This document shows positions 9,445 to 31,436 of a stretch of DNA of 33,044 nt, in pieces. Under the pieces are notes generated by a model that made no database searches, was not told where the DNA came from, and saw nothing but the letters and a program-made list of their open reading frames with translations. The position numbers and the translations under genes are program-made. Each line of letters starts with the position of its first letter. The first letter of the stretch is position 1. Source of the stretch: a virus. The DNA lies in the IMG/VR virus record IMGVR_UViG_3300025128_000181, positions 1 to 33,044 of that record, one strand, 5' to 3'.

Positions 9445-9447
9445 CAT

Positions 9448-16656: not shown

Positions 16657-16826
16657 TAATAACTCTCCTCAAATTCCTCCAGAAATCTATCTTGCTTTTC
16701 TATCAGTCTCTTTTCAAAAGCATCTAATAGTTCATCGGGTTCTATTTCTAATTCATCACAGATTAGGCACACATCATATGTTGCAGCGATGTATGCCTTT
16801 AGCTCTGGTAGTTGTTTTGTTATCAA
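16656..16826 (-). CDS. Small acidic helical protein (56 aa), TTG start
   Basis: A 56-residue leftward frame from TTG 16826 to TAG 16656-16658. The TTG lies in the TTGA overlap with the nuclease stop (TGA 16823-16825), the same rare-start coupling as at 5156. The protein is helical and acidic, with MITKQLPELKAYIAATYDVC, an ELEIEPDELLDAFEKR turn-helix and an EKQDRFLEEFEESY end. It fills exactly the space between two solid genes in the same direction, overlapping one and touching the other. The family is not recognised; similar short acidic proteins occur at this place in other marine phages. Confidence 0.6.
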   Translation of the reverse strand: MITKQLPELKAYIAATYDVCLICDELEIEPDELLDAFEKRLIEKQDRFLEEFEESY

Positions 16827-17629
16827 AAGTCAGCTCCATTAGTAACATAATAATTAGTTATCTTACCAGATGGAATAGGTCTTGCTTCCAGACTACCAAA
16901 GCAATCTTCCTTAAACCCACAGAATGCACACGTCATACATAGCTTCTCTTCTGTCTTGGCTTTGTTCCAAGTTGTAGCGTTAGCTAATCGCATAGGTGGT
17001 GTGTCTGATTCCATCTTGGCTTTTAAGTCAACAACAAATGTATCTATGTCTTGTTCCAATGGTTGTTCACATAGCTTGAGTGTTGACTTGTTCTTGTTGA
17101 AAGCTAGGAAGTATCCTTTCTTTCTATTGTCTGCTTTACCATAGGCAGATAGCTGTTTGATGTAGCCAAAAGTATCATCAGTGAGCCCAGTCTCTTGGAA
17201 CTTATTGTCCCAGGACCAAGCACTTGCTGTCTTAATATCTACTAGCTCACCATCAATCGTACAATCCTGGCTACCGTCTACACCTTCTAGTGTGTGCTTC
17301 TTTTGTTGGTCTTCTACTGTGTGTCCAGACAGCTTAAGCAAAGCGATCAGGACTGCTTCTAGTATGTGACCTTGCAAGAAGGTAAGGTAAACTTCACCAC
17401 TTATTTGTTCTGGTGTGTAACCGTGGTAGTTGTACCACTGTGCTCTTTCACATTTGCCTAGGGATGACATCCGTAAGTTACGATTGTCTTCTCTTGGTTT
17501 GAAAGCATCTTTAATTGCTTCTTCTACCTCTCGACCAGCTTGCATAGCTATCGAGCTCAAGTCTCCAGAATAATCTTTTGACTTCATTACATCATATACA
17601 TCTTGTACTACTGTATTTATAGACTTCAT
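16823..17629 (-). CDS. Cas4/RecB-like PD-(D/E)XK exonuclease with cysteine cluster
   Basis: A 268-residue nuclease. The RecB-type core is visible: Glu91 in QGHILEA, Asp126 in CTIDGE, the D131-I-K133 pair, and YIKQLSAY with Gln159 and Tyr163 (motif QxxxY). Cys60 (LGKCERAQWY) and the C-terminal CMTCAFCGFKEDC (C231, C234, C237, C243) match the four-Cys iron-sulphur site of Cas4/AddB-type nucleases. Such enzymes resect DNA ends for recombination or degrade host DNA. A GAGGAG ribosome-binding site precedes ATG 17629, and a palindromic operator (17661-17674) lies 32 bases upstream, so this gene probably starts a controlled sub-operon with the ribonucleotide reductase genes after it. Confidence 0.82.
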   Translation of the reverse strand: MKSINTVVQDVYDVMKSKDYSGDLSSIAMQAGREVEEAIKDAFKPREDNRNLRMSSLGKCERAQWYNYHGYTPEQISGEVYLTFLQGHILEAVLIALLKLSGHTVEDQQKKHTLEGVDGSQDCTIDGELVDIKTASAWSWDNKFQETGLTDDTFGYIKQLSAYGKADNRKKGYFLAFNKNKSTLKLCEQPLEQDIDTFVVDLKAKMESDTPPMRLANATTWNKAKTEEKLCMTCAFCGFKEDCFGSLEARPIPSGKITNYYVTNGADF

Positions 17630-17660: not shown

Positions 17661-17674
17661 TGTAACGCGTTACA
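17661..17674. promoter_or_regulatory. Palindromic operator, copy 1
   Basis: A perfect 14-bp palindrome, TGTAACGCGTTACA, extended to 16 bp by flanking T/A. It sits in the 48-bp gap between the polymerase stop and the nuclease start, 32 bp upstream of that start codon. Three more copies occur at 24115, 25868 and 26952. The AT-rich stretch after it could contain a leftward promoter (TTGTAA, 18 bp, TTTAAT), but this is weak. Dyad symmetry, repetition and position support a repressor or activator binding site. Confidence 0.7.
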
Positions 17675-17677
17675 ATT

Positions 17678-19408
17678 TTAGTGTGTTTCATCCCAGCTCT
17701 TGCCAACCTTGTACTCACCAGTGATTGGACAGTTTAGTTTATAGTAGTCTGTTGTCTCTTCCATAGCTTGGACAACCAGCTTGCCAATAACCTCTGCATC
17801 TGTGGGGTCACACTCTATCTGTATCTCATCGTGTATCACACCCAACTGCTTGTAATCAAACTGATAAGCAAGTGAATGGAATATAACCCAAGCCCTCTTA
17901 GCTATGATAGAACCAGCACTTTGAAGTAAAAAGTTAAGTGCTGAGTGTGGGCTACGAACATACACTCTACGACCATCAAGTGTCCTGATCCAGCCCTTCT
18001 TTGACGCGTGCTCTATCTTCTTTCTAAGCACAGCCAACGCTGGGGTATTGGATAAGAACTGCTGTTTAATCTTTCTGCCTAGCTTCATACCACCACCACA
18101 TATCTTTCCTATCAGCTCATCACCACCACCATATAGGTAGGCATAGATGAAACGCTTTGACTCATCTCTGGTGCTCAGACCCGCAGCCTTTTGATTAGCT
18201 GTGTGTATGTCACCACTTAATATCTCTTCAGTATACCCTGGGTCTTTCATATAATGTGCTAAACATCTCAACTCAAGTCCAGATAAATCAGCTCCAACAA
18301 TTACCTTGCCATCTGGCACAGTAAACAAACCACGCATCTGCTTGCCATACTCTTTGTTGCTTGCTGTTACTTGCTGTAAGTTAGGGTTGCTACTAGACAT
18401 ACGGTGTGTGACAGTGCCCATAGTGTGGACTCTGCTATGTATTCTTCTAGTATCGTAGTTGTACTCATCAACCCAACTACTCACTTGGCTCTGCCTTTTC
18501 TGCAACATAAGATACCTAGCTATAATCTTAGCTTCGGGTATGTCCACATCCTTGAGTGTTGACTCATCAACCTTCGGCATACCAGTCTCAGTAAATACAC
18601 TAGGCTTCCATCCATAATGCATAAGGTGTCTGCCTACTTGCTGTCTACTGCCCAGATTTAACTCTGGATAAGTCCAGTATCCGTAGTCACCATCATCATT
18701 AGTGTGACACTCCAGGTCCACCTCTGTCTGATAGTGCTTAGTTCTCTGTCCTCTCTTAGTAAACCTATTCTTGACTGGTGTCTTGCTCTGCCATACTGGT
18801 AGTGGTACAAAAGTTTTGTGCACCTCCTCCTCTGCAAGTCTCAAGTCATCATTGATTTCAACCAACAAATCAATAGCACCTTTAATATCAAAGAACCATC
18901 CAGTCTTTTCTTGAAGTGAACAGTGCTTCTTAGTTTGATACTCCAACTCTTTAGCATCCTCACTCAAGTTGCTGTTCACCAAATACTTATACAATTTAGT
19001 AGTCACCTTGGTATCTCTGATGCAATACTCTAGCATCTCATCTGACATTTTAGACCAATCGCTGTGGTCTCCCTTCTCAAAGCCGAGTCTATCTCCCCAG
19101 GCTGCAAGTGAATGACCACCGTCTAGTCTTGGTTTGTATAGCTGGCTCATCACCATTGTGTCTTCTATCTTGACACCACTAAAGTCTACATCAAGCAGTC
19201 TCTTTAACACTGGCACATCAAAAGCTATGCCATTATGAAAGATCAGGCAGTCAGCTTCTCTCTGCACCCAGTCTTTGAACAACTCAAGGCAAGAGCCAGC
19301 AAACGTAGTCACCTCATCTGTATCTATATTGTGGACAGAGATGCACCATACAACAGTAGCATCTATGCCATCCGTTTCTATGTCACAACTAAAAGTCTGC
19401 ATCATCAT
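17678..19408 (-). CDS. polA: DNA polymerase, family A, with 3'-5' exonuclease
   Basis: A 576-residue replicative polymerase of the T7/Pol I type. Exonuclease motifs: SCDIETDG (D9, E11), FHNGIAFD (N59, D64) and YCIRD (Y128, D132). Polymerase motifs: A in GADLSGLELR (D374), B in RDESKRFIYAYLYGG (R414, K418, Y426) and C in VIHDEI (D527). The residue matching Pol I Phe762 is Tyr422, as in T7. No 5'-3' exonuclease domain is present, as usual for phage forms. The first 20 bases overlap the end of the primase-helicase gene. The start is one of three consecutive Met codons (19408, 19405, 19402); the GGGAG upstream has best spacing to the third. Confidence 0.95.
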   Translation of the reverse strand: MMMQTFSCDIETDGIDATVVWCISVHNIDTDEVTTFAGSCLELFKDWVQREADCLIFHNGIAFDVPVLKRLLDVDFSGVKIEDTMVMSQLYKPRLDGGHSLAAWGDRLGFEKGDHSDWSKMSDEMLEYCIRDTKVTTKLYKYLVNSNLSEDAKELEYQTKKHCSLQEKTGWFFDIKGAIDLLVEINDDLRLAEEEVHKTFVPLPVWQSKTPVKNRFTKRGQRTKHYQTEVDLECHTNDDGDYGYWTYPELNLGSRQQVGRHLMHYGWKPSVFTETGMPKVDESTLKDVDIPEAKIIARYLMLQKRQSQVSSWVDEYNYDTRRIHSRVHTMGTVTHRMSSSNPNLQQVTASNKEYGKQMRGLFTVPDGKVIVGADLSGLELRCLAHYMKDPGYTEEILSGDIHTANQKAAGLSTRDESKRFIYAYLYGGGDELIGKICGGGMKLGRKIKQQFLSNTPALAVLRKKIEHASKKGWIRTLDGRRVYVRSPHSALNFLLQSAGSIIAKRAWVIFHSLAYQFDYKQLGVIHDEIQIECDPTDAEVIGKLVVQAMEETTDYYKLNCPITGEYKVGKSWDETH

Positions 19409-21044
19409 CTCCCATAAGTGGTGAGTGTCCCTTCTCTAATCTTCCAGTCTTGCCATTGAAGTATGCCCATCCAGCCTCACCAGTCTGACCAGTTCTTCTC
19501 ATCTTGGGCACACGAATGCGGGTTGCATTTCTCTCGTAGTCATCCTCTGCCAGTTTGTCTCTTGAGAATAGTATGTTGGTATGGCACGCTTGTGGTATAG
19601 CACCACTGCCCTTGACATCATACTCACTTATCTTATGTGGGTGACTACCATCATCGGGCTTCCTTGTATGTGTGCTTAGTATCACAGTAGCCTTGGTCTC
19701 CTTACATAGCTTGATAAACCTATCCATCACCTCTTCAATATTCTCATTGGAAAGGTTCTTGATAGCTGTATGTAATGGGTCAACCAGGATTACAGAACAG
19801 CCCAGTCCCTTGACAAAGTATCTAATCTTACTGAACATTTCTTCAAGGTCTATGCTGCCACCACCATCATCGTGTAGCTGTATCTTAGACGCAAACCCTA
19901 TGTCAACAGCATCTTTCATAATCTTATCCACATTCAAATCATTAGGCTTAAGCAACTGCATATTCTCACCAGTGTGTACGCTGACAACTTTCCTAATCGT
20001 CTCATCAATATTATCCTCGACCATAAAGCAACCTATCTTCTCCTTAGTATTGGTAGAGAAATGATAGATTAACTCATTAAGTATTGTTGTCTTGCCTATA
20101 GATGTGTGTGCAATGATGGACACCAGCTCACCACGAGCTACACCACCACGCATCATCTCATTTAGATTGCCAAAGGAATCGGGCAAAGGTATTAACTCAG
20201 TATCTCTGTACTGCATCATAGCATTACGCATATCCTCTACACTAGCTACACCCGACACAGTGTATGGCTTGGAATAATCCCACCACTCGTGAACAAACTG
20301 CTTGCTGTCACCATTAATCAGATACTCACAAGCATCCTTCCACTTAGACAGCGTTAGTATCTTGCATTTGTTAGGTCCAAGCAGTGGGGCTACTGCATTT
20401 GCTGCATCCCTACCCGCTTCATCGTTATCGAATGCGAGCACAACTGTCTCGAATGAATCGAGCCAATCCAAATTAGCTTTGATATTGTCCACACAATTAG
20501 AGCCATTAATCACACTAACAAATGAGAACTTGCTACCGAACATCTCATATGCGGCCATCGCATCCAGTTCACCCTCTAGTATAGTGACAAACTTTCCCCC
20601 AGGCTTTTCTATGTGCTGACCAAACAGTGCATTGTTCTTGCTAGTATCTCCACTACCAAAGAATCTCTTGCCTTCCACTATCCTTGTCTTCATACCAACC
20701 ATCTCACCTTTTCGGTTGTGTATTGGGTAGTGGTGCTTGATGATGTTGCCATCCTTATCCTTCTCAGCCTTGACCTTGAACTTCTCAAGCGTCTCACCTC
20801 TAAGCCTACGATCAGGCAAGCTAAAATACTCACCTCTATAGTCAGCTAGCCACTCATCATCCTTTGATTGTTTTACTTTTACCCCACCTAGTGCCTCCTT
20901 GCCTCCCCTATGGTGGGTGCCGCAAGCAAAGCAGTGGGTTTGACCATCTGAATAGACAGCCATATTATCCTTGCTTGTGTCCTTGCCTTGCGTTGCACAA
21001 GTGGGACACTGCTCCTTCCTTAAAAGTATATTTCTTTTATTCAT
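19389..21044 (-). CDS. Primase-helicase, T7 gp4-like
   Basis: A 551-residue bifunctional replication protein. I chose ATG 21044 because GGGAGGAG lies just before it; the frame is open 51 bases further, but that part is inside a terminator hairpin. N-terminal zinc-binding Cys pairs are CPTC (13, 16) and CFAC (38, 41). The TOPRIM domain has ILEGELDAM (E157, D161) and AFDNDEAGRD (D206, D208). The RecA-like helicase has Walker A AHTSIGKTT (K318), Walker B VILVDP (D422), and a later LSTHTRKP motif. It unwinds the fork and makes primers for the polymerase encoded next. The C-terminal DDDADF tail is acidic, as in T7, where it contacts the polymerase. Confidence 0.93.
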   Translation of the reverse strand: MNKRNILLRKEQCPTCATQGKDTSKDNMAVYSDGQTHCFACGTHHRGGKEALGGVKVKQSKDDEWLADYRGEYFSLPDRRLRGETLEKFKVKAEKDKDGNIIKHHYPIHNRKGEMVGMKTRIVEGKRFFGSGDTSKNNALFGQHIEKPGGKFVTILEGELDAMAAYEMFGSKFSFVSVINGSNCVDNIKANLDWLDSFETVVLAFDNDEAGRDAANAVAPLLGPNKCKILTLSKWKDACEYLINGDSKQFVHEWWDYSKPYTVSGVASVEDMRNAMMQYRDTELIPLPDSFGNLNEMMRGGVARGELVSIIAHTSIGKTTILNELIYHFSTNTKEKIGCFMVEDNIDETIRKVVSVHTGENMQLLKPNDLNVDKIMKDAVDIGFASKIQLHDDGGGSIDLEEMFSKIRYFVKGLGCSVILVDPLHTAIKNLSNENIEEVMDRFIKLCKETKATVILSTHTRKPDDGSHPHKISEYDVKGSGAIPQACHTNILFSRDKLAEDDYERNATRIRVPKMRRTGQTGEAGWAYFNGKTGRLEKGHSPLMGDDDADF

Positions 21045-21059
21045 ATCTCCTCCCGTTTT

Positions 21060-21091
21060 AAAATAAAAAGGCAGCCACCCTCGTAGCTGCC
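21060..21091 (-). terminator. Rho-independent terminator between SSB and primase genes
   Basis: Read leftward, GGCAGC-UAC-GAGG-GUG-GCUGCC forms a 9-bp stem (one G-U pair) with a four-base loop, followed at once by UUUUU-A-UUUU. It lies 24 bp after the SSB stop (21115) and 16 bp before the primase-helicase start. It should end most transcripts from the SSB unit, so primase, polymerase and downstream genes depend on read-through or antitermination. Confidence 0.8.
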
Positions 21092-21114
21092 CCATATAAC
21101 ACTGCTATCTTACA

Positions 21115-21498
21115 TTAGAAATCAGATTCGTCTAGCTCCCCAGCACCCTCTGCTTTCTCTTCGACTCTTACTGCTTCTAAGTAACTGAAAGCAGACCAGT
21201 CTCCCTTGCCAGGCTTAACCTTGATAGTTACTGTGTCACCATAGAGAGAAAGATGGTTGATACTAACCTCCTCCTTGTCGACATTGTAAACTTTAGGTGC
21301 ACCGAAATCTATCTTACGAGTAGCGGTGATTTGCGTAGCACCATCATACTCCTTAGTCTTCAGTCCTTTTTTCTCAGCAAGTTTCTTACTATCCTTATCC
21401 AACGCAATTGTCAAAGAATATTTCTCCGTTCCCTTGTACACATCGGGCTTTAAAATGTGGTTAAAAACCACAGTACCAACTAAACTCATAGCACTCAT
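21115..21498 (-). CDS. Single-stranded DNA-binding protein, T7 gp2.5-like
   Basis: A 127-residue protein started at ATG 21498, which has AGGAG six bases upstream; the frame continues eight codons further, but without a better site. It is a compact beta-rich OB-fold-like protein with GTVVFNHILKPDVY near the start, a GATQITATRKIDFG turn in the middle, and an acidic C-terminus ending ELDESDF. An acidic tail with a terminal aromatic is the hallmark of phage SSBs such as T7 gp2.5, used to contact polymerase and primase-helicase. Location directly before the primase-helicase and polymerase genes supports the role. A long structured leader precedes it and a strong terminator follows. Confidence 0.8.
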   Translation of the reverse strand: MSAMSLVGTVVFNHILKPDVYKGTEKYSLTIALDKDSKKLAEKKGLKTKEYDGATQITATRKIDFGAPKVYNVDKEEVSINHLSLYGDTVTIKVKPGKGDWSAFSYLEAVRVEEKAEGAGELDESDF

Positions 21499-21525
21499 AT
21501 ATAACTCCTGTAACATTAACATTTA

Positions 21526-21692
21526 TGACCCGTAGGTCTCCGACTAGTAGGTAATCCTACTAAGGGTACACTGGAAAATAAGGAAGGAAAACCAGTGTAC
21601 TCTTAGAAAGACTAAGAACCTAAGACTATCTGAGAGTGAGCCCGCTAGTTAGCTAGCTAGATTGCTTACCCTCAGACTGTCTTAGTATTGTA
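21526..21692 (-). other. Structured non-coding leader upstream of SSB
   Basis: The 208 bases between the 21707 gene and SSB hold no reading frame but several inverted repeats. A perfect 9-bp stem, GTACACTGG (21566-21574) with CCAGTGTAC (21592-21600), has a 17-base loop. A 7-bp stem, TAGTAGG/CCTACTA, spans 21545-21562 with a TAAT loop. A long interrupted stem pairs CTAAGAC (21620-21626) with GTCTTAG (21678-21684), CTGAG with CTCAG and GTGAGC with GCTTAC. CTAAG/CTTAG repeats could form alternative pairings. None is followed by a U-run, so these are not ordinary terminators. They may control SSB translation or stability, form a small RNA, or be a replication structure. Confidence 0.65.
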
Positions 21693-21706
21693 GGAGATAC
21701 AAGTAA

Positions 21707-21907
21707 TTAAATTTTAGCTGACGTTTCAGGATGTGTCAAGCTATTTGCTATCTTTTTTTCCTGATCCGTATGCTCCTTGTAATATGCATCTGAACGCATA
21801 TACTCCTCGACCATAGCATCAATGATGTCTTGCTCAGTGAGACTATCTATATCACCACCTTGCAGCTCATCCATTTTATCCATCATCATTTGTTTAAATA
21901 CTCCCAT
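21707..21907 (-). CDS. Small acidic Met-rich protein (66 aa)
   Basis: A 66-residue protein started at ATG 21907, chosen because GGGAGGATTAAT lies directly upstream and because this start avoids overlap with the neighbouring gene ending at 21909. The frame is open 20 codons further. It is acidic and helical: MGVFKQMMMDKMDELQGG, then an IDSLTEQDIIDAMVEEYMRSD helix pair. The family is not recognised. It lies in a run of small genes of unknown role between the methyltransferase and SSB, each with its own strong ribosome-binding site, a pattern typical of host-takeover genes. Confidence 0.6.
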   Translation of the reverse strand: MGVFKQMMMDKMDELQGGDIDSLTEQDIIDAMVEEYMRSDAYYKEHTDQEKKIANSLTHPETSAKI

Positions 21908-21908
21908 A

Positions 21909-22157
21909 TTAATCCTCCCTTGGTGGGTATTCATCATCGTCATCAAGACTGTCATCTTTCGGTACAATCTCAGTGACGCTCACTATCTCAAACTCATCGT
22001 GCAGTTGAGAATTCCTTGCTTCACCGTGGTACTCATCACTCCAGTAGGCATCGTCTGCAACCATCTCTGCATCCTCCTCACTACTGGCTTCAACTACCAC
22101 GACAAAATCATACGATACAGTTGACTGTATGTGTACTTCATAGTCTTTGTAACTCAT
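21909..22157 (-). CDS. Small acidic conserved phage protein (82 aa)
   Basis: An 82-residue protein with GGGAGGTAAT before ATG 22157. The first half is YEVHIQSTVSYDFVVVVEAS followed by SEEDAEMVADDA. An alternating beta strand followed by an EEAE-type helix is seen in a loose group of small phage proteins that modulate or mimic nucleic-acid-binding partners; I cannot be more precise. The C-terminus is very acidic (DDSLDDDDEYPPRED), which could mimic DNA. Its stop is one base from the next start. No function is assigned. Confidence 0.6.
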   Translation of the reverse strand: MSYKDYEVHIQSTVSYDFVVVVEASSEEDAEMVADDAYWSDEYHGEARNSQLHDEFEIVSVTEIVPKDDSLDDDDEYPPRED

Positions 22158-22158
22158 A

Positions 22159-22398
22159 TTACCTCCCGTTTTTTGGTATTACTGACATTTTATTAGCAGA
22201 TGTGAAGAGTGCACCAGCATCGTTACCTTCATCATCACTGCTTGCTATTATCCAGGACCCATCAGTGAATACTATGACTGGTGCGTTACTGTACCATCCC
22301 ATATGATTCATCTCATCATCCGTTAGATATTCTATCTTCCTAACTGTCTTACCTTTGAAGATTTTAGTGGCATCTCCAGACCAATCACGCATTCCCAT
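22159..22398 (-). CDS. Small conserved phage protein (79 aa)
   Basis: A 79-residue protein with a GGAGGTAAGA site before ATG 22398. It has KTVRKIEYLTDDEMNHMGW, then a beta hairpin SNAPVIVFTDGSWIIASSDD and GNDAGALFTS. The GW..xPVIVFxDGxxIxxSxDxEGNxAGxL pattern recurs in small hypothetical proteins of many phages and likely forms one compact beta domain. The function is unknown. It overlaps the previous gene's end (22385) by 14 bases. It belongs to the small-gene cluster between methyltransferase and SSB. Confidence 0.65.
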   Translation of the reverse strand: MGMRDWSGDATKIFKGKTVRKIEYLTDDEMNHMGWYSNAPVIVFTDGSWIIASSDDEGNDAGALFTSANKMSVIPKNGR

Positions 22399-22618
22399 TC
22401 TTACCTCCCATATTTTTTATAGTATCTTTATTATCCAATCGCCACTGTTCTCTAGCTTCAACCCTAAACTTATTGAGCCTAGCTACATCACTGTAGTTCA
22501 TAGTCTTACCGTACCTATCCTTCACCTTACCACCGTGTGAATAGATACCATCTAGGTAGCTTGGGTTTATCTGTATCCCATATGCTACCTTGACTTCATC
22601 GTCTTGCCACTTTTTCAT
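22385..22618 (-). CDS. Small basic protein (77 aa)
   Basis: A 77-residue protein with AGGAGGGATA before ATG 22618. It is rich in Lys, Asp, Tyr and Asn, with YGIQINPSYLDGIYSHGGKV followed by KDRYGKTMNYSDVARLNKFR and a basic amphipathic helix (residues about 45-65). No domain is recognised; the helix with regular Arg/Lys spacing could bind nucleic acid. Its start lies inside the end of the 34-residue gene at 22596-22700, and its stop lies inside the next gene. Such dense overlaps are the rule in this cluster. Confidence 0.55.
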   Translation of the reverse strand: MKKWQDDEVKVAYGIQINPSYLDGIYSHGGKVKDRYGKTMNYSDVARLNKFRVEAREQWRLDNKDTIKNMGGKNGNA

Positions 22619-22700
22619 TATCCCTCCTATCTTTTCTACGTTGTGTTCGACTTAACTTTCTTTTCTTAATCCTACGATTCCATCCGATGTATCTCTTCAT
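22596..22700 (-). CDS. Tiny highly basic peptide (34 aa)
   Basis: A 34-residue leftward frame from ATG 22700 to TGA 22596-22598: it begins MKRYIGWNRRIKKRKLS, continues with RTQRRKDRRDNEK and ends VARR, with 16 Lys/Arg. An AGGAGG box lies exactly six bases upstream of the ATG, one of the best ribosome-binding sites in the arm, which argues against chance. It overlaps the end of 22672-22932 by 29 bases and the start of 22385-22618 by 23 bases in different frames. The composition suggests RNA or DNA binding (an antiterminator-like arginine-rich peptide is possible). No homology is claimed. Confidence 0.6.
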   Translation of the reverse strand: MKRYIGWNRRIKKRKLSRTQRRKDRRDNEKVARR

Positions 22701-22932
22701 CGTTATCCTCCTGGATTAATCCGTTGTAATTGAGTATGTGCTCAACCATACTGACAATATAACAATACTCATCTTGCTTCTCTTCTGTCATACGCTCATC
22801 CCCATTCTCATCTGTAACATAGATTGAGTCAAGTGATGAATACTCCAGGACCAGTGTTGCTAACTCAGAGTATAGGCTTATGTATGTATGTGGATGCAGC
22901 CTAACATCATCCAGTATTAATTGTTTGGTCAT
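22672..22932 (-). CDS. Small acidic helical protein (86 aa)
   Basis: An 86-residue protein started at ATG 22932, where AAGGAGGG lies upstream and the ATG overlaps the methyltransferase stop (ATGA). An earlier in-frame start would lie inside the methyltransferase gene and is rejected. Residues MTKQLILDDVRLHPHTYISL and a LATLVLEYSSLDSIYVTDENG strand-turn are followed by an acidic helix with EEKQDEYCYIVSMVEHILNY and an acidic end. The family is not recognised. Coupling to the methyltransferase suggests co-expression, but no functional link can be shown. Confidence 0.6.
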   Translation of the reverse strand: MTKQLILDDVRLHPHTYISLYSELATLVLEYSSLDSIYVTDENGDERMTEEKQDEYCYIVSMVEHILNYNGLIQEDNDEEIHRMES

Positions 22933-24077
22933 ACAAACCCTCCTTGTTTTAGTATGTGAACTATCACATCGACAGTCCATCCATTGCCCAACATCTTCTT
23001 GCGTTGGGTATTGCTTACACCATCCGTATAGTTATCGGGCAGTGTTTGTAATCGCTCCATCTCTAATGGTAGCAGTGGGCGATACGTTCCTTTCTCTACT
23101 ACTAAGTTATCCTTCTCAACAGTAGTCAAGCATCCAGACTTGTCATCCTTACGGGGCTCAAGTCTTTGCTTGGGAGTGATGTCTGTGTTGTAGTCATCCC
23201 TCTTACCAGTAACTGGGTTGATGCGTCTGCCTACCATCCTAGCTACTAATACTTTAGGCTCACGATTACCGCCACCCATAGTATTCAGAGTTGGACTCTT
23301 ACCCGTATCTGAATATACACGCTTGAGTATATCGTGTCCATTAATGTCTAGTGCAGTGCCAACGTGATGACAATCCTCATCTTTGTCATACTCTCTGAGT
23401 TCACAAGTTCTGACACCAGTCATAGCTTGGTTGCCAAATCCCTTGTAATCTCTAGCCAATAGACAAGCAGCCTTATCCACGTTTATCTGTTTAACAGTCG
23501 TGCCTTGGTCAGCTACACTATCACCGTATCCCTCAACAAGTATATCCTTCAAGACTATACCTTTGTCATCGGGCTGAGTTATATCCCAGTTAGCCCAGTA
23601 CAAACGGTATCTGTTTTGTGCTGATACAAGTGACGAGTTTATCGCTACTGGTTCTACACCTAGATACTTGCTTATGATGTCTTGATACTCTTGCTTCATC
23701 CTTACATTTTCTAATAAGAATTTAACATTAGGATTGTATCTGCGACACTCTTCCAGGACTCTGAGAAACTCAAAGAATAGTGCTGACCTAGGGTCATCAA
23801 AAGCTAACTGCTTACCCGCAAAACTAAATCCTTGACAAGGTGAACCCGCAAGGATTAGGTCTATGTTTGGCAGTTGTATCCCGCTTACAAAATTAACATC
23901 ACCAACACACTCAGTATCTGGGTAGTTCTTGAGCGTAATCTTCTCAGCCCAAGGGTCTACCTCAGATGCAAAGTATCTGCTGACCTTAATCCCTGATCGT
24001 TCAAGGGCTACTTGACCGCAGCTCGAACCATCAAACAGACTTAGCACGTTAATGCCTAGATTGTTATCTTTATCCAT
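22929..24077 (-). CDS. DNA C5-cytosine methyltransferase
   Basis: A 382-residue enzyme that transfers a methyl group from S-adenosylmethionine to cytosine C5 in DNA. Motif I is SLFDGSSCGQ (12-21), IV is AGSPCQGFSFAG with catalytic Cys81, VI is LLENVR with Glu123, VIII is SAQNRYRLYW (Gln154, Arg156, Arg158), and X is GNGWTV (364-369). The region between VIII and IX (about 180-330) is the target-recognition part. It likely protects phage DNA from restriction or marks it during infection; the target is unknown. A strong ribosome-binding site precedes ATG 24077, with a palindrome-overlapped promoter 38 bp upstream. No partner restriction enzyme gene is seen. Confidence 0.93.
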   Translation of the reverse strand: MDKDNNLGINVLSLFDGSSCGQVALERSGIKVSRYFASEVDPWAEKITLKNYPDTECVGDVNFVSGIQLPNIDLILAGSPCQGFSFAGKQLAFDDPRSALFFEFLRVLEECRRYNPNVKFLLENVRMKQEYQDIISKYLGVEPVAINSSLVSAQNRYRLYWANWDITQPDDKGIVLKDILVEGYGDSVADQGTTVKQINVDKAACLLARDYKGFGNQAMTGVRTCELREYDKDEDCHHVGTALDINGHDILKRVYSDTGKSPTLNTMGGGNREPKVLVARMVGRRINPVTGKRDDYNTDITPKQRLEPRKDDKSGCLTTVEKDNLVVEKGTYRPLLPLEMERLQTLPDNYTDGVSNTQRKKMLGNGWTVDVIVHILKQGGFV

Positions 24078-24092
24078 ACTTACTCCTTCCTA

Positions 24093-24135
24093 GTTATAAA
24101 GAGCAAAGGATATCTGTAACACGTTACAAATATCC
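24093..24135 (-). promoter_or_regulatory. Palindromic operator copy 2 over a leftward promoter
   Basis: The core TGTAACACGTTACA (24115-24128) lies in a longer 28-bp dyad (24108-24135) whose arms match except at one pair. Read leftward, GTTACA (complement of 24115-24120) could be the -35 box and TATAAC (complement of 24093-24098) the -10 box, with a 16-bp spacer, so the dyad covers the -35. The 24-base centre is identical to copy 3 at 25863-25886. It should control the methyltransferase operon. Confidence 0.7.
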
Positions 24136-24143
24136 CTTGGTTT

Positions 24144-24428
24144 TTACAACTCAGATAAGAAATCCCCAGGACTCATACCCCTATCTCTGTAATCATCCAT
24201 TAGCTTATCACTATACTTATCTCTCAATCTCTTATCTTGTATATCAGCCCACATATTCCTCTCTTTTAGGGTAGTAAATACATAACTATTTTCCCCCGCT
24301 AGTGAGTCAGATGCAAACGATTCATTTGAGTTAAAAACTGTACAGAAATCCTCGACACGAACTTCCCATCTCTCGACAAGCCATTCATCTATCAAGGTGT
24401 ATCCATACATTAGCGTTTCATCGTGCAT
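24144..24428 (-). CDS. Small acidic protein (94 aa), unknown
   Basis: A 94-residue protein with AAGGAGGATAT before ATG 24428. It starts MHDETLMYGYTLIDEWLVE, then has RWEVRVEDFCTVFNSNES, and ends with a charged helix (KLMDDYRDRGMSPGDFLSEL). It is acidic overall with no membrane segment or known motif. The stop lies 15 bp before the operator of the methyltransferase promoter, so it is probably the last gene of a transcription unit that starts near 25834 or 25303. The function is unknown. Confidence 0.6.
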   Translation of the reverse strand: MHDETLMYGYTLIDEWLVERWEVRVEDFCTVFNSNESFASDSLAGENSYVFTTLKERNMWADIQDKRLRDKYSDKLMDDYRDRGMSPGDFLSEL

Positions 24429-24437
24429 ATATCCTCC

Positions 24438-24632
24438 TTATTCGTGACCATTTTCTTGCATAAACTCTACTGCTTCCTCTATCTGGTCAGTTACTGTTAG
24501 TTGTGGTATGAAATTAGCCCAGTTTGCACTAAAATAATCCAACAACTCCTCTACTTGGTACACATCTATCATATCATTTTCATAACAATATACGATAGCT
24601 TCAATAGCACCATCTGTAAACTTATCAACCAT
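24438..24632 (-). CDS. Small acidic helical protein (64 aa), unknown
   Basis: A 64-residue protein with AGGAGGTGATAAAGT before ATG 24632. Three amphipathic helices are likely: FTDGAIEAIVYCYENDMIDV, YQVEELLDYFSANW and VTDQIEEAVEFMQENG. It is strongly acidic, which is common in small phage inhibitors, but no target is known. It lies between the GP88-like gene and the 24144 gene with short gaps, in the same unit. Confidence 0.6.
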   Translation of the reverse strand: MVDKFTDGAIEAIVYCYENDMIDVYQVEELLDYFSANWANFIPQLTVTDQIEEAVEFMQENGHE

Positions 24633-24646
24633 ACTTTATCACCTCC

Positions 24647-25303
24647 TTAATGTTTAAAATAACTTACATTTTTTACACTACTATCCCAGCATTGTCTACA
24701 ATCACCGCATTCACCGTCATTCTCAAAGGCTCTGCAAGTTGCATCATCCTTGTTAGTAACGACTGTGCTAGTGTTTGCATACTTTGGTGGTTTGCCATCC
24801 ACAAAACTACCACTCAGCCTAATCACTAGATTTTTAGGGATAGGCTTACTGTAATTCTGTATCCAATTGCTTTCCTTAGTAGGCAGCCAGTATTGAATAT
24901 CGGGAGTAGCTTCTGCAATCTGCACAATCTTATCCAAATGCTCAACACTTTGTATATCACCGCTATCGTGCCATCTAAAAACTTTATCCTTTAGTATTGC
25001 TTTAGCGTGAGTCATCACAAATATCATTGCTTCAACCCATTGAGGCTTATCGATACTATCAAGACGTCTGTATTGTGCTTTCTTTACTTCGGGATAGACC
25101 GTATAAAATCCTTTATCCGCATAGCAATCTGCACACACGGAAGTAGGTATTTGTTTAAGTATCATCCCAGTCTTGCACATATCTGTAGGCAATCCGTAAG
25201 ACCAGCCTGGCATTTTCTTAGGATTAGAAAATTTACCAACATAATCTTGAGCTGCCTTCAGTGTTCTAAATGGCAATAGTAACAAATTGTTTTGTATATC
25301 CAT
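24647..25303 (-). CDS. GP88-like cysteine-rich phage protein, possible metal cluster enzyme
   Basis: A 218-residue protein started at ATG 25303, with AAAGAAGG upstream; a 12-codon in-frame extension lacks such a site. It has PGWSYGLPTDMCKTG, then IPTSVCADCYADKGFY, a VFRWHDSGDIQSVEHLDK block and IQYWLPTKESNW, closing with Cys-rich CRAFENDGECGDCRQCW. This is the pattern of the phage family known as gene product 88 (PF17338), sometimes labelled radical-SAM-like. The Cys clusters suggest an iron-sulphur or zinc site, and the central WHDSGD looks like an active-site block. The reaction is unknown to me. It is three genes upstream of the DNA methyltransferase, so a DNA or nucleotide modification role is an idea only. 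Confidence 0.7.
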   Translation of the reverse strand: MDIQNNLLLLPFRTLKAAQDYVGKFSNPKKMPGWSYGLPTDMCKTGMILKQIPTSVCADCYADKGFYTVYPEVKKAQYRRLDSIDKPQWVEAMIFVMTHAKAILKDKVFRWHDSGDIQSVEHLDKIVQIAEATPDIQYWLPTKESNWIQNYSKPIPKNLVIRLSGSFVDGKPPKYANTSTVVTNKDDATCRAFENDGECGDCRQCWDSSVKNVSYFKH

Positions 25304-25321
25304 ACACTTTCCTTCTTTAGT

Positions 25322-25356
25322 TATAACAAGTAAGCCCAATCCTAACGATCAGGCTT
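25322..25356 (-). promoter_or_regulatory. Hairpin and possible promoter upstream of the GP88-like gene
   Basis: In the gap before 25303, AAGCC (25332-25336) pairs with GGCTT (25352-25356) and ATC with GAT inside, giving an interrupted stem that contains one of the GATCAGG sites. Read leftward, TTATAACTA follows it, the same -10-like string as upstream of the methyltransferase (24093-24098), but no good -35 is visible. On the plus strand the stem is followed by a T-run, yet no plus-strand gene ends here. Confidence 0.35.
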
Positions 25357-25367
25357 AGTTTTTACAA

Positions 25368-25493
25368 CTAATCCTTGTATTTCTCGTTTATCTTATCATT
25401 CATATCCATAAAGAATGGAACGAAAACGCAAGACAATCCGATTAATACAAGAATAAATATAAATAAATCAAACATTAAATTGCCTATCATCAT
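25368..25493 (-). CDS. Tiny membrane peptide (41 aa)
   Basis: A 41-residue leftward frame from ATG 25493 (overlapping the previous TGA; a second ATG at 25490 follows) to TAG 25368-25370. Residues about 7-28 form one very hydrophobic segment (FDLFIFILVLIGLSCVFVPF), followed by a charged tail (MDMNDKINEKYKD). ATGA coupling to the WYL_2-like gene supports translation. It looks like a single-pass inner-membrane peptide expressed early. The function is unknown. Confidence 0.55.
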   Translation of the reverse strand: MMIGNLMFDLFIFILVLIGLSCVFVPFFMDMNDKINEKYKD

Positions 25494-25834
25494 TTACCTC
25501 TTATTACTTCTTTAAATAATCCTTCGGTCATCCATAAATCACGCTCACCGCCCGACTTAATATAATAGACCGTATCCAAATTGACAGTTCTGTATCCCTT
25601 ACGCGTTTCAAAAACAACTCGTAAATTTGGCTTATCCTCTGGCTTGTAAGATAACTTACCGCCTTTAAGAAACTTTTTTACGCCTATCCTACAGTTCATA
25701 ACTCGTTTGCTGCCATCCGCTTTATGAAATTTGACCGTAAAAAATCTGCCTTTACTGTCATCTATAACTTGCCTTATCCTATTAACTCTGGATTGGCTTT
25801 GAATAGATTTTTTTCTAAATTGACTTATTGCCAT
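25490..25834 (-). CDS. WYL_2-like (Sm/SH3 barrel) small phage protein
   Basis: A 114-residue protein started at ATG 25834, where CGAGG lies five bases upstream; a GTG two codons earlier is an alternative. After a basic helix (FRKKSIQSQSRVNRIRQVI), the barrel signature follows: GRFFTVKFHKADGSKRVMNC, a RIGVKKFLKGG turn, then LRVVFETRKGYRTVNLDTVY and YIKSGG. This matches the phage family described as WYL_2 (PF10902, formerly DUF2693), an Sm-like SH3 barrel related to regulatory WYL domains. It is the first gene after operator copy 3, so it could regulate transcription, perhaps its own operon, but the sequence does not prove DNA binding. The basic N-terminus is compatible with it. Confidence 0.7.
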   Translation of the reverse strand: MAISQFRKKSIQSQSRVNRIRQVIDDSKGRFFTVKFHKADGSKRVMNCRIGVKKFLKGGKLSYKPEDKPNLRVVFETRKGYRTVNLDTVYYIKSGGERDLWMTEGLFKEVIRGK

Positions 25835-25862
25835 AAACACCTCGTTTTTATTGGTTAAATTA

Positions 25863-25886
25863 ATATCTGTAACACGTTACAAATAT
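25863..25886. promoter_or_regulatory. Palindromic operator, copy 3
   Basis: Core TGTAACACGTTACA at 25868-25881, within a 24-base block identical to 24110-24133 upstream of the methyltransferase. It lies 34 bp before the start of the WYL_2-like gene. Read leftward, GTTACA could be a -35 box, but the -10 at the expected spacing (ATAAAA/TAAAAA) is poor, so the promoter is less certain than the operator. Confidence 0.7.
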
Positions 25887-25923
25887 ACCTTTATAAATAG
25901 TGATTTAACACGCTTCACATACT

Positions 25924-25988
25924 TATATTGAAGACTTCTTTTTAATTTAATACCTTTGGCTAGGTATTGTCAAAAAGTCTTGAATATA
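25924..25988. repeat. Nested inverted repeat (compound stem-loop)
   Basis: Outer arms of 14 bases, TATATTGAAGACTT (25924-25937) and AAGTCTTGAATATA (25975-25988), are complementary except at one pair. Between them AATACCT (25949-25955) and AGGTATT (25962-25968) form an inner 7-bp stem with a TTGGCT loop. It lies between the terminator at 26011 and operator copy 3, with no reading frame. It could be a cruciform, a small RNA, an origin element or a transcription insulator. Confidence 0.7.
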
Positions 25989-26008
25989 GGCATATTTTAC
26001 ATTAAGCA

Positions 26009-26034
26009 ATAAAAAAGCCCCTCGAAAGGGGCTT
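26009..26034 (-). terminator. Rho-independent terminator after the 26053 gene
   Basis: Read leftward, AAGCCCCU-UUCG-AGGGGCUU forms a perfect 8-bp stem with a stable UUCG tetraloop, then a U-run. It begins 19 bp after the stop of the gene at 26053-26793. It closes a single-gene transcription unit. Confidence 0.92.
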
Positions 26035-26052
26035 CCTTAGTGCTAGGGTGTG

Positions 26053-26793
26053 TTACTTCTTTCCCTTGCCTTTTGGCTTGCTAACTGTCGACTTCTTAGC
26101 GTCTTTCCCATAGTCTTTTTGGAAAGTCTTTCGTTGATTGGAAAGAATCTCAAATTTCTCGTCATCAAGATTCAAAAACCAGTCTTCAAATGCCTCGCTC
26201 AACTGTCTATCTAAGCTATCTAAGTGCTCGCTTTCCGCTTTCGCTTTGGCTTCTTGTTGGCTTGCTGTCGTTGTTGGCTTTGTCGCTTCTGTGTAGGGCT
26301 TTTCGTGTTGCTTTTTACCTACACCCTTAAGAGATAACCTTTCATTGTCGCTTATGTAGTTCTTTTGCTTAGCCCACATAAAAGCCTTGTGAAATTGAAC
26401 GCGTAAAGTATTTAATCTCTCAAAGTTTTGGGGATTTTCACCGCCTTTCGTTTGATTCTTAAGCCTTGTCGCATAGTCAACTACATCTTGCACACCTACT
26501 GTATCGATTTTCCCGTCTTGATTGAATAGGATTGATTGCAAAATTTGTTGAATGCTCGCGATCGCGGATTCACTTTCAATAATAGCGTCATTCAATAGCT
26601 TGATTGACTCGCTTACATTTGTGAAAGATTCCTTAGTATCACTTATGGAATTATGCGGGTTAGTTATGTCGCTTTTTTCCTCGTTTTTAAGATTATCACG
26701 CTCAATCATCTTCAAAATGTCGGTCATTCCCGCGTTCACTCTTAAGCTAGTTAGCTTGCTTCTGTCTAATTGTGTTGTTTGTTGTGTTGTCAT
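26053..26793 (-). CDS. First leftward (early) gene, unknown function (246 aa)
   Basis: A 246-residue soluble protein with a CGAGGA site before ATG 26793. The N-terminal part (1-60) is Thr/Ser/Asn-rich, then comes a long helical region (about 60-105, IASIQQILQSILFNQDG), a mixed core with LRVQFHKAFMWAKQKNYIS, a Thr/Ala/Glu-rich linker and a basic tail (KPKGKGKK). No known domain is seen. It has a unit of its own: a TTGACA promoter 60-90 bp upstream and a strong terminator downstream. CG dinucleotides are much more frequent than in neighbouring genes, and it holds the only GATC outside the GATCAGG context, suggesting recent transfer. An immediate-early host-takeover protein is a reasonable guess. 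Confidence 0.7.
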   Translation of the reverse strand: MTTQQTTQLDRSKLTSLRVNAGMTDILKMIERDNLKNEEKSDITNPHNSISDTKESFTNVSESIKLLNDAIIESESAIASIQQILQSILFNQDGKIDTVGVQDVVDYATRLKNQTKGGENPQNFERLNTLRVQFHKAFMWAKQKNYISDNERLSLKGVGKKQHEKPYTEATKPTTTASQQEAKAKAESEHLDSLDRQLSEAFEDWFLNLDDEKFEILSNQRKTFQKDYGKDAKKSTVSKPKGKGKK

Positions 26794-26823
26794 ATTTTCC
26801 TCGTTTATTTTGTTTTATTAACA

Positions 26824-26843
26824 CGCGGGGAAAAGCCCTCGCG
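26824..26843 (-). other. GC-rich hairpin at the 5' end of the early transcript
   Basis: CGCGGGG (26824-26830) pairs with CCC-(T)-CGCG (26836-26843), a 7-bp stem with one bulge and a five-base loop. It begins right at the expected start of the leftward transcript from the promoter at 26852-26880. Such 5' hairpins can protect mRNA from decay or limit ribosome access. Confidence 0.55.
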
Positions 26844-26851
26844 ATTCTTAA

Positions 26852-26880
26852 AGAATACCTAAAGTCTTTCGGAATGTCAA
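26852..26880 (-). promoter_or_regulatory. Leftward sigma70-type promoter for the early gene
   Basis: Read leftward: TTGACA (complement of 26875-26880), a 17-bp spacer, then TATTCT (complement of 26852-26857). The -35 is a perfect consensus and the -10 matches four of six. The transcript would start near 26845 and lead into the gene at 26793. Host RNA polymerase should read it, in line with the absence of a phage polymerase gene in the window. Confidence 0.75.
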
Positions 26881-27190
26881 ATAAACTATAAAACTAAGCT
26901 ACTAATTATTATTATATGAATCCTCGAATATCCCTCGAATAAAAATAAATCTGTAACGCGTTACAAAAATACCTAGATACATCCTCGGACAATCTCGCGA
27001 CCGATTCCGCGAGAAAATCGAGCCCGCGACCGACTAAGAAAAAGCCGAGGAAAGCGAAGCCACCCAACCCTTTTAAAAAAAACTTATCCCGGCGAAACCT
27101 ATGCACAGGTAAAATTTTATATTTTTCAGATATACCTCGCACATCCTCGACAGATTCGGGCATACTGTGTTAATCAATGCCAAACTGGGG
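26881..27190. other. Divergent control region, possible replication origin
   Basis: No convincing gene lies here. The stretch from 26799 to 27149 contains seven CCTCG and one CGAGG pentamers, including two in tandem at 26922-26937 (CCTCGAATA repeated with 11-bp spacing). GCGACCGA occurs at 26997-27004 and 27026-27033, and CTCGCG/CGCGAG can pair around 26994-27012. An A-tract at 27075-27082 is followed by CTATGCACA (27099-27107), one base from a DnaA box. Repeats, GC/AT alternation and the divergent promoters fit an origin, but no single element proves it. A leftward 83-codon frame (26912-27163) lacks a ribosome-binding site and contains operator copy 4, so I do not call it. Confidence 0.4.
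26952..26965. promoter_or_regulatory. Palindromic operator, copy 4
   Basis: TGTAACGCGTTACA again, with flanks close to copy 3 (AGGTAT before and AGAT after when read leftward). Unlike the other copies it is far (159 bp) from the next leftward start, and about 70 bp upstream of the -35 of the TTGACA promoter. It may control that promoter from a distance, a closer promoter (a TATAAT lies about 35 bp further left), or the divergent rightward promoter. Confidence 0.65.
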
Positions 27191-27219
27191 TTGACTTTTA
27201 GTGGTTTATACTTTATAAT
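27191..27219 (+). promoter_or_regulatory. Rightward sigma70-type promoter for the terminase/capsid operon
   Basis: TTGACT (27191-27196), exactly 17 bp, then TATAAT (27214-27219): five of six and six of six consensus matches with ideal spacing. The transcript would start near 27226 and carry a leader of about 137 bases before the small terminase gene. I see no other comparable rightward promoter in the window, so it may drive the whole late unit. Confidence 0.85.
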
Positions 27220-29402: not shown

Positions 29403-31436
29403 ATGGCTAAAATGACAAAGAGGGAGCTATCTGCTCACCTAGAGCAGGAAATCAATGCTGCTTTAGGGTACAAAGATGGAAAGCTCACGGAGCAACGCTC
29501 TGATGCATTAGACCGTTACTATGGTAAGAAGTATGGTAATGAGCAAGAAGGTCGTTCTCAGATTGTCACAAGAGATGTAGCCGATGTAATCGAATGGATT
29601 ATGCCTAGCCTTATGAAGATATTTACTTCTGGGGATCAGGTAGTCAAGTTTGAACCACAAGGTCCAGAAGATGTGGAGATGGCAAAACAGTCTACAGACT
29701 ATGTAAACTATGTCATTATGAGACAAAACCCTGGATTCTCTACAATATACCAGTGGTTTAAAGATGCACTACTGCAAAAAAATGGTGTAATAAAACACTA
29801 CTGGGATGACAGCAGTGAAACATTAAGAGAAGAGTACAAAAACTTAACAGAAGAAGAGTTTACTGCACTCTTGCTAGATGACAATGTTGAAGTAAAACAA
29901 CACACAGAAAACGTAGGCGAAGGAGAAATGACTCTAGAGCCCACTACACACGATGTTGTAGTAAACAGAACATACGAGGATGGGCAGGTAAGAATAGAGC
30001 CTGTACCACCAGAAGAATTTTTAATTGACAAGTATGCCAAGACAATTGACAGTGCAAGGTTTGTCGCTCACAGAGTAAAGAAAACTAAGTCAGAACTATT
30101 AGAACAAGGTTATCCTAAATCAAAAATTGAAAATGTATTCAATAATGATGAAGCGGATTACAAAGCTGAAAGACTTTCTAGATTCTCACACGAGCAAGAC
30201 AACTCACCAGAAGGTGATATTGATGATGGAGTCTGGGTTACAGAGTGCTACCTAAGAGTAGACTATGATAACGATGGTATTGCTGAATTAAGAAAAGTAA
30301 CGAAGGTTGGAGATGAACTGTTAGATAATGAGGCTGTGGATAGTGTTCCCTTCTCCTCCCTTACACCTATACCAATGCCTCATAAGTTTTACGGTCTGAG
30401 TATTTATGACTTAATCTCCGACCTTCAACTCATTAAGACTACACTAATGCGTAACTTGTTAGACAATATGTATCTAACAAACAATGGGCGATACGAAGTA
30501 GTGGAAGGTCAAGCAAATTTAGATGACCTAATGACTTCTAGACCAGGTGGAATCGTAAGAGTACGAACACCAGGTGCGGTAAATCCACTAGGGACACCGC
30601 AACTAGACCAGAACTCTTTTAATATGCTGGGGTATTTAGACAGTATTAGAGAAGAACGAACTGGTGTTAGTAAGCAGTCAATGGGTTTATCTGAAGGTGG
30701 GCTGAAGTCTCACCAAACTGCTACAGGTGTTGGTCAAGTAATGACTGCCGCACAGCAGAAAATAGAATTAATAGCTAGAATATTTGCAGAAACAGGTATG
30801 AAAGACCTAGCAAACTCTGTCTATATGTTAGTACAAAAGTTTGAAAAGCCAGAGAAAATTGTAAGACTAAACAATAAATGGACTACACTATACCCACACG
30901 AGTGGAAAGAAAAGATGGATTGTGTAGCACAAGTTGGATTAGGATTTGGTAATAAGGATATGAATCTTATGCACCTAGGAAGATTGGCTCAAACAATACA
31001 GATGATTGCACAACACCCGCAAGCTGGTATGTTGTTAAAGCCAAAAAACATATACAACTTAGTAGCCGAACAGATAAAAGCTATGGGTATGAAGAATGTA
31101 GATGACTTTATTACAGACCCAGGCGATCAGGATGTGCAACAACAACAAGGGCCTAGTCCAGAAGAGCAAGCCAAGCAGATGGAAGCACAGCTCAAAGCTG
31201 AAGAAATTAAAGTTAAGTTGCAAAAAATACAACAAGAGTCTGCTATTAAACAGCAAGAAATGCAACTGGAAGCTGACATAGCTGCCCAGGACCTAGAGCT
31301 TAAGAGACAAGAAGCGTCAGTAGATATGCAAATTAAAGCACAAGAGCTAGAAATAAAGAAGGCAGAACTGGCACTTAAACAACAAGAGCTTGTACTTGAG
31401 AGAGAACAAGAACGAGCTGTCAAGATAGGAAACTAG
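29403..31436 (+). CDS. Portal protein, P22 gp1-like
   Basis: A 677-residue protein that forms the dodecameric ring through which DNA enters and leaves the capsid. The N-terminal YYGKKYGNEQEGRSQIVTRD followed by VADVIEWIMPSLMKIFTSGD is a marked signature of P22-type portals. It is followed by EPVPPEEFLIDKYAKTIDSA, a wing region (DNDGIAELRKVTKVGD), a helical crown region with LMRNLLDNMYLTNNGRYEVV, and a Gln/Glu/Lys-rich coiled coil at the C-terminus (about 585-670), like the long barrel of P22 gp1 (725 residues). It overlaps nothing but is followed one base later by a small gene. Confidence 0.88.
   Translation: MAKMTKRELSAHLEQEINAALGYKDGKLTEQRSDALDRYYGKKYGNEQEGRSQIVTRDVADVIEWIMPSLMKIFTSGDQVVKFEPQGPEDVEMAKQSTDYVNYVIMRQNPGFSTIYQWFKDALLQKNGVIKHYWDDSSETLREEYKNLTEEEFTALLLDDNVEVKQHTENVGEGEMTLEPTTHDVVVNRTYEDGQVRIEPVPPEEFLIDKYAKTIDSARFVAHRVKKTKSELLEQGYPKSKIENVFNNDEADYKAERLSRFSHEQDNSPEGDIDDGVWVTECYLRVDYDNDGIAELRKVTKVGDELLDNEAVDSVPFSSLTPIPMPHKFYGLSIYDLISDLQLIKTTLMRNLLDNMYLTNNGRYEVVEGQANLDDLMTSRPGGIVRVRTPGAVNPLGTPQLDQNSFNMLGYLDSIREERTGVSKQSMGLSEGGLKSHQTATGVGQVMTAAQQKIELIARIFAETGMKDLANSVYMLVQKFEKPEKIVRLNNKWTTLYPHEWKEKMDCVAQVGLGFGNKDMNLMHLGRLAQTIQMIAQHPQAGMLLKPKNIYNLVAEQIKAMGMKNVDDFITDPGDQDVQQQQGPSPEEQAKQMEAQLKAEEIKVKLQKIQQESAIKQQEMQLEADIAAQDLELKRQEASVDMQIKAQELEIKKAELALKQQELVLEREQERAVKIGN

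Follow-up and report, generated by a model that had tools for sequence, protein, structure and literature searches.

In the cluster A mycobacteriophages L5 and Bxb1, repressors and stoperators diverge together, and the sites are located in short intergenic gaps (PMC6550527, PMC9283540). L5-type genomes carry 20–30 stoperators each (PMC6550527), which are asymmetric 13-mers (PMC9283540), and the repressor of these temperate phages is monomeric, with an N-terminal HTH plus a stoperator domain (PMC6550527, PMC9283540). The operators of lambda CI have been described as near-symmetric (PMC10742460). In its working, the locus reported here is closest to the L5/Bxb1 stoperator systems, although on the features tested it is not a member of them. 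Like them, it has one phage-encoded, here proposed, regulator with sites in intergenic gaps and in a control region, and site and regulator sequences were found to diverge together between related phages. Unlike L5, it has only 4 sites in the 33-kb window and 2–5 in each relative contig, as opposed to 20–30, and these are symmetric and 15–16 bp long, not asymmetric and 13 bp. No relation of the protein to those repressors was detected by sequence or fold, and no tyrosine integrase (PF00589) was found in the 13 records searched.

Three other arrangements are of similar outline. Lambdoid CI/Cro immunity combines near-symmetric operators, a divergent early/late control region and type-specific repressor-operator pairs. 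Lambda N acts with nut boxB, where small type-specific leader palindromes are matched by a fast-diverging cognate phage protein, the N/boxB pairs of lambdoid phages being type-specific as well. In parS/ParB pairs, several short palindromes likewise go with a type-specific cognate protein.

Four copies of a palindrome in the leftward arm

The window, i.e. the whole 33-kb stretch (33,044 nucleotides) that was analysed, is an IMG/VR linear virus record encoding a family A DNA polymerase, a primase-helicase, a B12-type ribonucleotide reductase, a Cas4-type exonuclease, a 5mC methyltransferase and an SU10-type portal. The portal (positions 29403–31436) scored 746 bits against the portal family of Phage SU10 and the DNA polymerase is pelagiphage-like, a combination reflecting mosaic ancestry. 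A sequence-only reading of this DNA had reported four copies of a palindrome, and our search found exactly four exact matches to TGTAACRCGTTACA, at 17661, 24115, 25868 and 26952, with 0 copies expected from dinucleotide shuffles of the window. Because the best remaining matches carry 3 mismatches, the rightward late arm is without an operator copy, as had also been noticed. The copies are as follows.

26952–26965, no strand: operator copy 1, in the control region upstream of the regulator gene; sequence TGTAACGCGTTACA
25868–25881, no strand: operator copy 2, in the leader of the WYL_2-like gene
24115–24128, no strand: operator copy 3, 5′ of the 5mC methyltransferase gene, forming the tip of an inverted repeat that extends over about 24085–24160
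17661–17674, no strand: operator copy 4, in the 48 bp that separate the DNA polymerase stop from the nuclease start

All four copies were intergenic, in gaps that make up 12% of the leftward arm (approximately 2e-4 under random placement), and two of them, in the nuclease and methyltransferase gaps, were operon-internal. Three preceded a start codon, by 32 bp at the nuclease gene (17629), 34 bp at the WYL_2-like gene (25834) and 38 bp at the methyltransferase gene (24077). The fourth was in the divergent control region, 159 bp ahead of the ORF start at 26793. The spacing of 32–38 bp and the control-region position agree with the earlier reading. Read on the minus strand in a 16-bp frame, the operator is TTGTAAC-N2-GTTACAR. 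The 24-base block common to the copies at 24115 and 25868 and the 28-bp dyad at 24115, which has one mismatched pair, proved to be real. The −35 box that had been placed under the 24115 copy was not borne out, as alignment of relatives revealed no conserved sigma-70 promoter overlapping that position.

The genes, promoters and terminator of the locus are listed below.

26053–26793, minus strand: proposed regulator gene (246 aa), the first gene of the leftward arm and the only tested gene tracking operator type
26852–26880, minus strand: regulator promoter, sigma-70-like (TTGACA-17-TATTCT), with an equivalent in most relatives
26018–26030, minus strand: intrinsic terminator immediately 3′ of the regulator gene, with a similar one in L083 and L086
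25944–25973, minus strand: promoter of the WYL_2-like unit, sigma-70-like (TTGACA-18-TAAATT), with the operator downstream of it
25490–25840, minus strand: WYL_2-like gene, a putative target, assigned to WYL_2 (PF10902), a family of small SH3-like proteins, through its relatives (27.0–27.5 bits versus a cut-off of 26.7)
22929–24077, minus strand: C-5 cytosine DNA methyltransferase gene, a putative target
16823–17629, minus strand: Cas4-domain-type exonuclease gene, a putative target (phrog_1990, E 7e-38)
27191–27219, plus strand: late promoter (TTGACT-17-TATAAT), directed rightward at the terminase genes, with no operator copy downstream

In the relatives, the WYL_2 promoter reads TTGACT-17-CATAAT with the operator at about +35. 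T7-type phage promoters were rejected, since no phage RNA polymerase was found: PF00940 (single-subunit RNA polymerase) was absent from the window, which is an incomplete genome, and from the relatives, while the control HTVC019P was detected. Host RNA polymerase is therefore the likely target of regulation.

Could the same regulator be an activator, or a dual regulator, of middle genes, with the palindrome taking the place of the −35 element or working from a position upstream of a −10? At the methyltransferase gene, a conserved TATAAC follows the palindrome by about 16 bp, which fits such a role, as does the position of the control-region palindrome, 34–37 bp ahead of a conserved TATAAT. However, at the WYL_2 gene a good, conserved promoter precedes the palindrome, the spacing between the palindrome and its nearest −10-like sequence varies from site to site, and the AT element on the nuclease side is also present in relatives without the palindrome (L011, L013). 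We regard activation as unlikely.

Further features of the non-coding DNA were noticed. CCTCG/CGAGG words are abundant in the control region of the window (26800–27160), and CATATAATAA is conserved after the control-region operator in relatives. An 83-aa ORF (26912–27163, minus strand) overlaps the control-region operator and is probably no real gene. Several relatives share a palindrome, TAGAATATTCTA, immediately beyond the gene for the small terminase subunit (L080 4640, L086 1704, L017 2421).

Putative operators of related phages

A DNA-polymerase search provided 67 related contigs, to which further searches added others; the regulon reading rests on about 15 of these, in several cases metagenomic fragments, representing about six independent operator types. 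Conservation of the palindrome at the same gene starts in related phages had been proposed as a check, and it was upheld as to position and failed as to the exact motif: among relatives, TGTAACRCGTTACA occurred at these gene starts only in the near-identical contigs L072 and L077. Comparison by exact motif was thus given up in favour of comparison by position. The other relatives carried different palindromes at the same positions, repeated 2–5 times per phage, alike within a phage and unlike between phages, with conserved flanks. The operator types, whose half-sites were aligned by hand, are as follows.

TTGTAAC N2: window, L077
TCGGAAC N2 (TCGGAAC-N2-GTTCCGA): L005, L007, L012, L081, L083
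TCGTAAC N2 (TCGTAAC-N2-GTTACGA): L010, L080
TCGGAAY N1 (TCGGAAY-N-RTTCCGA): L006, L074, L086, L088
TCCGARG N1 (TCCGARG-N-CYTCGGA): L062, L091
TCGTATY N1: L013
ATTAACC N1: L015

All are symmetric dyads of 15–16 bp. Core identity within a phage was 0.88, compared to 0.41 after shuffling among phages, and none of 5000 shuffles was as high. Alignment of relatives revealed the rewritten core within conserved flanks most clearly at the methyltransferase gene. Relatives without the motif had been named as the refuting result, and taken literally this result was obtained; that these relatives have another palindrome in place of TGTAACRCGTTACA makes the case for a regulon stronger. One regulator over the leftward units, as first proposed from the window, is well supported at the sequence level by palindromes that share positions, agree with one another in each phage and change along with a single gene.

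Some contigs departed from this arrangement: 1) L012 had a fifth operator about 40 bp before the start of a DUF3310 gene, 2) L013 had sites at only two of the four positions, and 3) in L010 (5385–5399) and L080 (8109–8123) the methyltransferase site was of a 15-bp type (TCGGAATAGTTCCGA and TCGGAACTCTTCCGA, respectively), mismatching their other 16-bp TCGTAAC sites, perhaps because it was left behind by recombination or because the gene has become uncoupled. In L008, L009, L011 and L017, which have no regulator homologue, repeated palindromes of the operator kind were not found. L024 and L035 each had one TGTAACTCGTTACA, at other locations. In L072 (9900–10437), the methyltransferase gene runs directly into ribonucleotide reductase sequence, unlike in the window, and this junction is a deletion or a chimaera. 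No mention of the exact motif TGTAACRCGTTACA was found in the literature searched. A scan of host genome contigs returned three short, weak matches, of which the one inspected was GC-rich DNA without a comparable ORF.

Co-variation of the proposed regulator gene with operator type

With the remaining genes on each contig as a matched control, regulator identity was correlated with operator similarity (Spearman 0.67, p<0.0005, 0 of 2000 permutations as high), compared to −0.04 to 0.21 for nine other genes; the statistic treats phages as exchangeable, covers about six independent types and uses permutations without phylogeny. Across different operator types, the top identity of the regulator was 62%, versus 84–100% for the other 15 of the 16 families compared.

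Pairs of close relatives demonstrated the same pattern. Between L062 and L074, the WYL_2-like protein was 99% identical, the methyltransferase 99.7%, and SSB and terminase 100%, whereas regulators and operators were unlike. The palindrome as the recognition site of the methyltransferase was rejected on this pair, in which the enzyme is nearly the same despite different palindromes. Between L083 and L086, the DNA was closely similar on either side, with the regulator ORF replaced and both operator cores rewritten inside conserved flanks. L091, which was found afterwards via the methyltransferase flank, had the L062 operator type and a regulator 83% identical to that of L062. The 15-bp and 16-bp operators part at one branch of the regulator tree (support 88/90, long branches being present). 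In L015, copies of GATTAACCCGGTTAATTTC surround a 182-aa ORF at the regulator locus, which is non-homologous and was not recognised by the regulator HMM.

The WYL_2-like protein had been named as candidate regulator because its gene follows one copy. Its identity hardly followed operator similarity (Spearman 0.15), and L006 and L062 had a 100% identical copy despite their different operators. It is therefore excluded as specificity determinant; not tracking operator type, it would instead be a regulated gene. The small proteins at 24144 and 24438 were also rejected as regulators, being 95–100% identical in the aligned part between L062 and the window, which differ in their operators.

Comparison of these contigs thus establishes, at the level of sequence, the sites, their positions, their concerted change within each phage and a co-variation exclusive to the 26053–26793 gene, and marks its predicted product as the probable operator specificity determinant. 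With respect to L062 (40.7 kb; positions 1857–2573 and 8308–11727), its regulator is without about 70 N-terminal residues present in L091, and its helicase and polymerase frames are apparently broken by frameshifts; the broken frames and shortened regulator appear to be due to sequencing errors or decay.

RNA folding at the operator sites

Three of the four sites are in presumably transcribed leader or intergenic RNA, where they might instead act as RNA hairpins, either serving an N-like antiterminator as type-specific sites of the nut/boxB kind or functioning as translational operators. The methyltransferase site can form a strong hairpin (z −6.3 versus shuffles), in which an inverted repeat at 24085–24160 (minus strand) has outer arms AGTTGTAAA..TTTATAACT and inner arms AAGGGATAT..ATATCCTTT, with the operator at the tip; it is conserved across 10 phages, and in five of its pairs both partners have changed. 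In the other direction, the remaining sites were not unusually stable (z +0.85, −0.36 and −1.61), the control-region site lies upstream of the regulator promoter, C..G is retained in the 16-bp types over a 2-nt centre, an arrangement that a hairpin cannot pair, and L062/L091 mostly have an A-C mismatch beside the centre. Apart from a CTCTTTA downstream of the methyltransferase site, the sites showed no boxA. The locus thus resembles lambda N/boxB in having small type-specific leader palindromes and a fast-diverging cognate phage protein, and differs in having a clear hairpin at only one of four sites, one site upstream of the promoter and dyads that run through the centre. Hairpins as the functional elements appear quite improbable to us. 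Since the methyltransferase operator is the tip of a long conserved hairpin, conservation there may be partly at the RNA level; an added RNA-level role is possible at this site, where the hairpin could be a weak terminator or an RNA processing site.

The proposed regulator protein

Searches of Pfam, PHROGs, the phage collection and the PDB gave no match to the 246-aa regulator. It is predicted to be mostly helical, and two AlphaFold models of it were of moderate confidence (pLDDT 64 and 69; pTM 0.42 and 0.44). A fold search gave nothing significant, with Z up to 7.1 to helical CID/VHS-type domains, which is within the tool's stated background. No known DNA-binding fold was recognised from Pfam, PHROG, the PDB and these models, CI/Cro-like or other HTH was not detected, and no arginine-rich RNA-binding N-terminus was seen by eye in regulator alignments. 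Near-symmetric operators, the divergent control region and type-specific regulator-operator pairing are as in lambdoid CI/Cro, from which the locus differs in the undetected HTH and in operators dispersed at the gene starts of the replication arm, as opposed to clustered at one divergent promoter pair.

Multi-copy palindromes of 14–16 bp with a type-specific cognate protein would also be expected of parS-like partition sites in a plasmid-like prophage whose centromere-binding protein would be the 246-aa product. Yet the protein has no match to ParB, KorB or CopG, and the sites are unclustered, spread over 9 kb at 32–38 bp before start codons, so that partition is, in our estimate, extremely improbable.

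Proposed mechanism

Taken together, we consider it likely that the four palindromes are operators of an early, type-specific DNA-binding repressor, the 26053–26793 product, acting at stoperator-like leader and intergenic sites. The regulator would be made early from its own sigma-70 promoter and would probably bind the 16-bp TTGTAAC-N2-GTTACAR as a dimer; a DNA-binding dimer fits because the dyad of the 16-bp types runs through the centre. Repression would fall on the control region of the regulator itself and, downstream, on three leftward units (WYL_2-like, methyltransferase and nuclease), with RNA polymerase stopped at sites in leaders and intergenic gaps. An elongation block is favoured because operators lie downstream of promoters, and the outcome would be a timed shut-off of early functions. 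Binding, dimer formation, repression over activation, timing, immunity and action on DNA versus RNA are here inferred.

Between close relatives, operator and regulator coding region change together, giving at least six specificity types, and this diversification may be driven by incompatibility of co-infecting or resident phages, i.e. by superinfection-immunity-like selection. More tentatively, this undescribed protein family might be a superinfection-immunity-type regulator in phages without detectable lysogeny genes, its specificity being repeatedly re-set by replacement of the regulator ORF and in-place rewriting of all operators, including the case of a non-homologous regulator (L015).

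The comparison provides about six natural regulator-operator pairs against closely related phage backgrounds. The phages concerned form an environmental group in which neither tyrosine integrase nor phage RNA polymerase was detected. The regulator lacks a recognised fold, and its specificity is nonetheless readable by comparison. It thus becomes testable whether presumably lytic phages keep immunity-like incompatibility groups, a topic usually studied in temperate phages.
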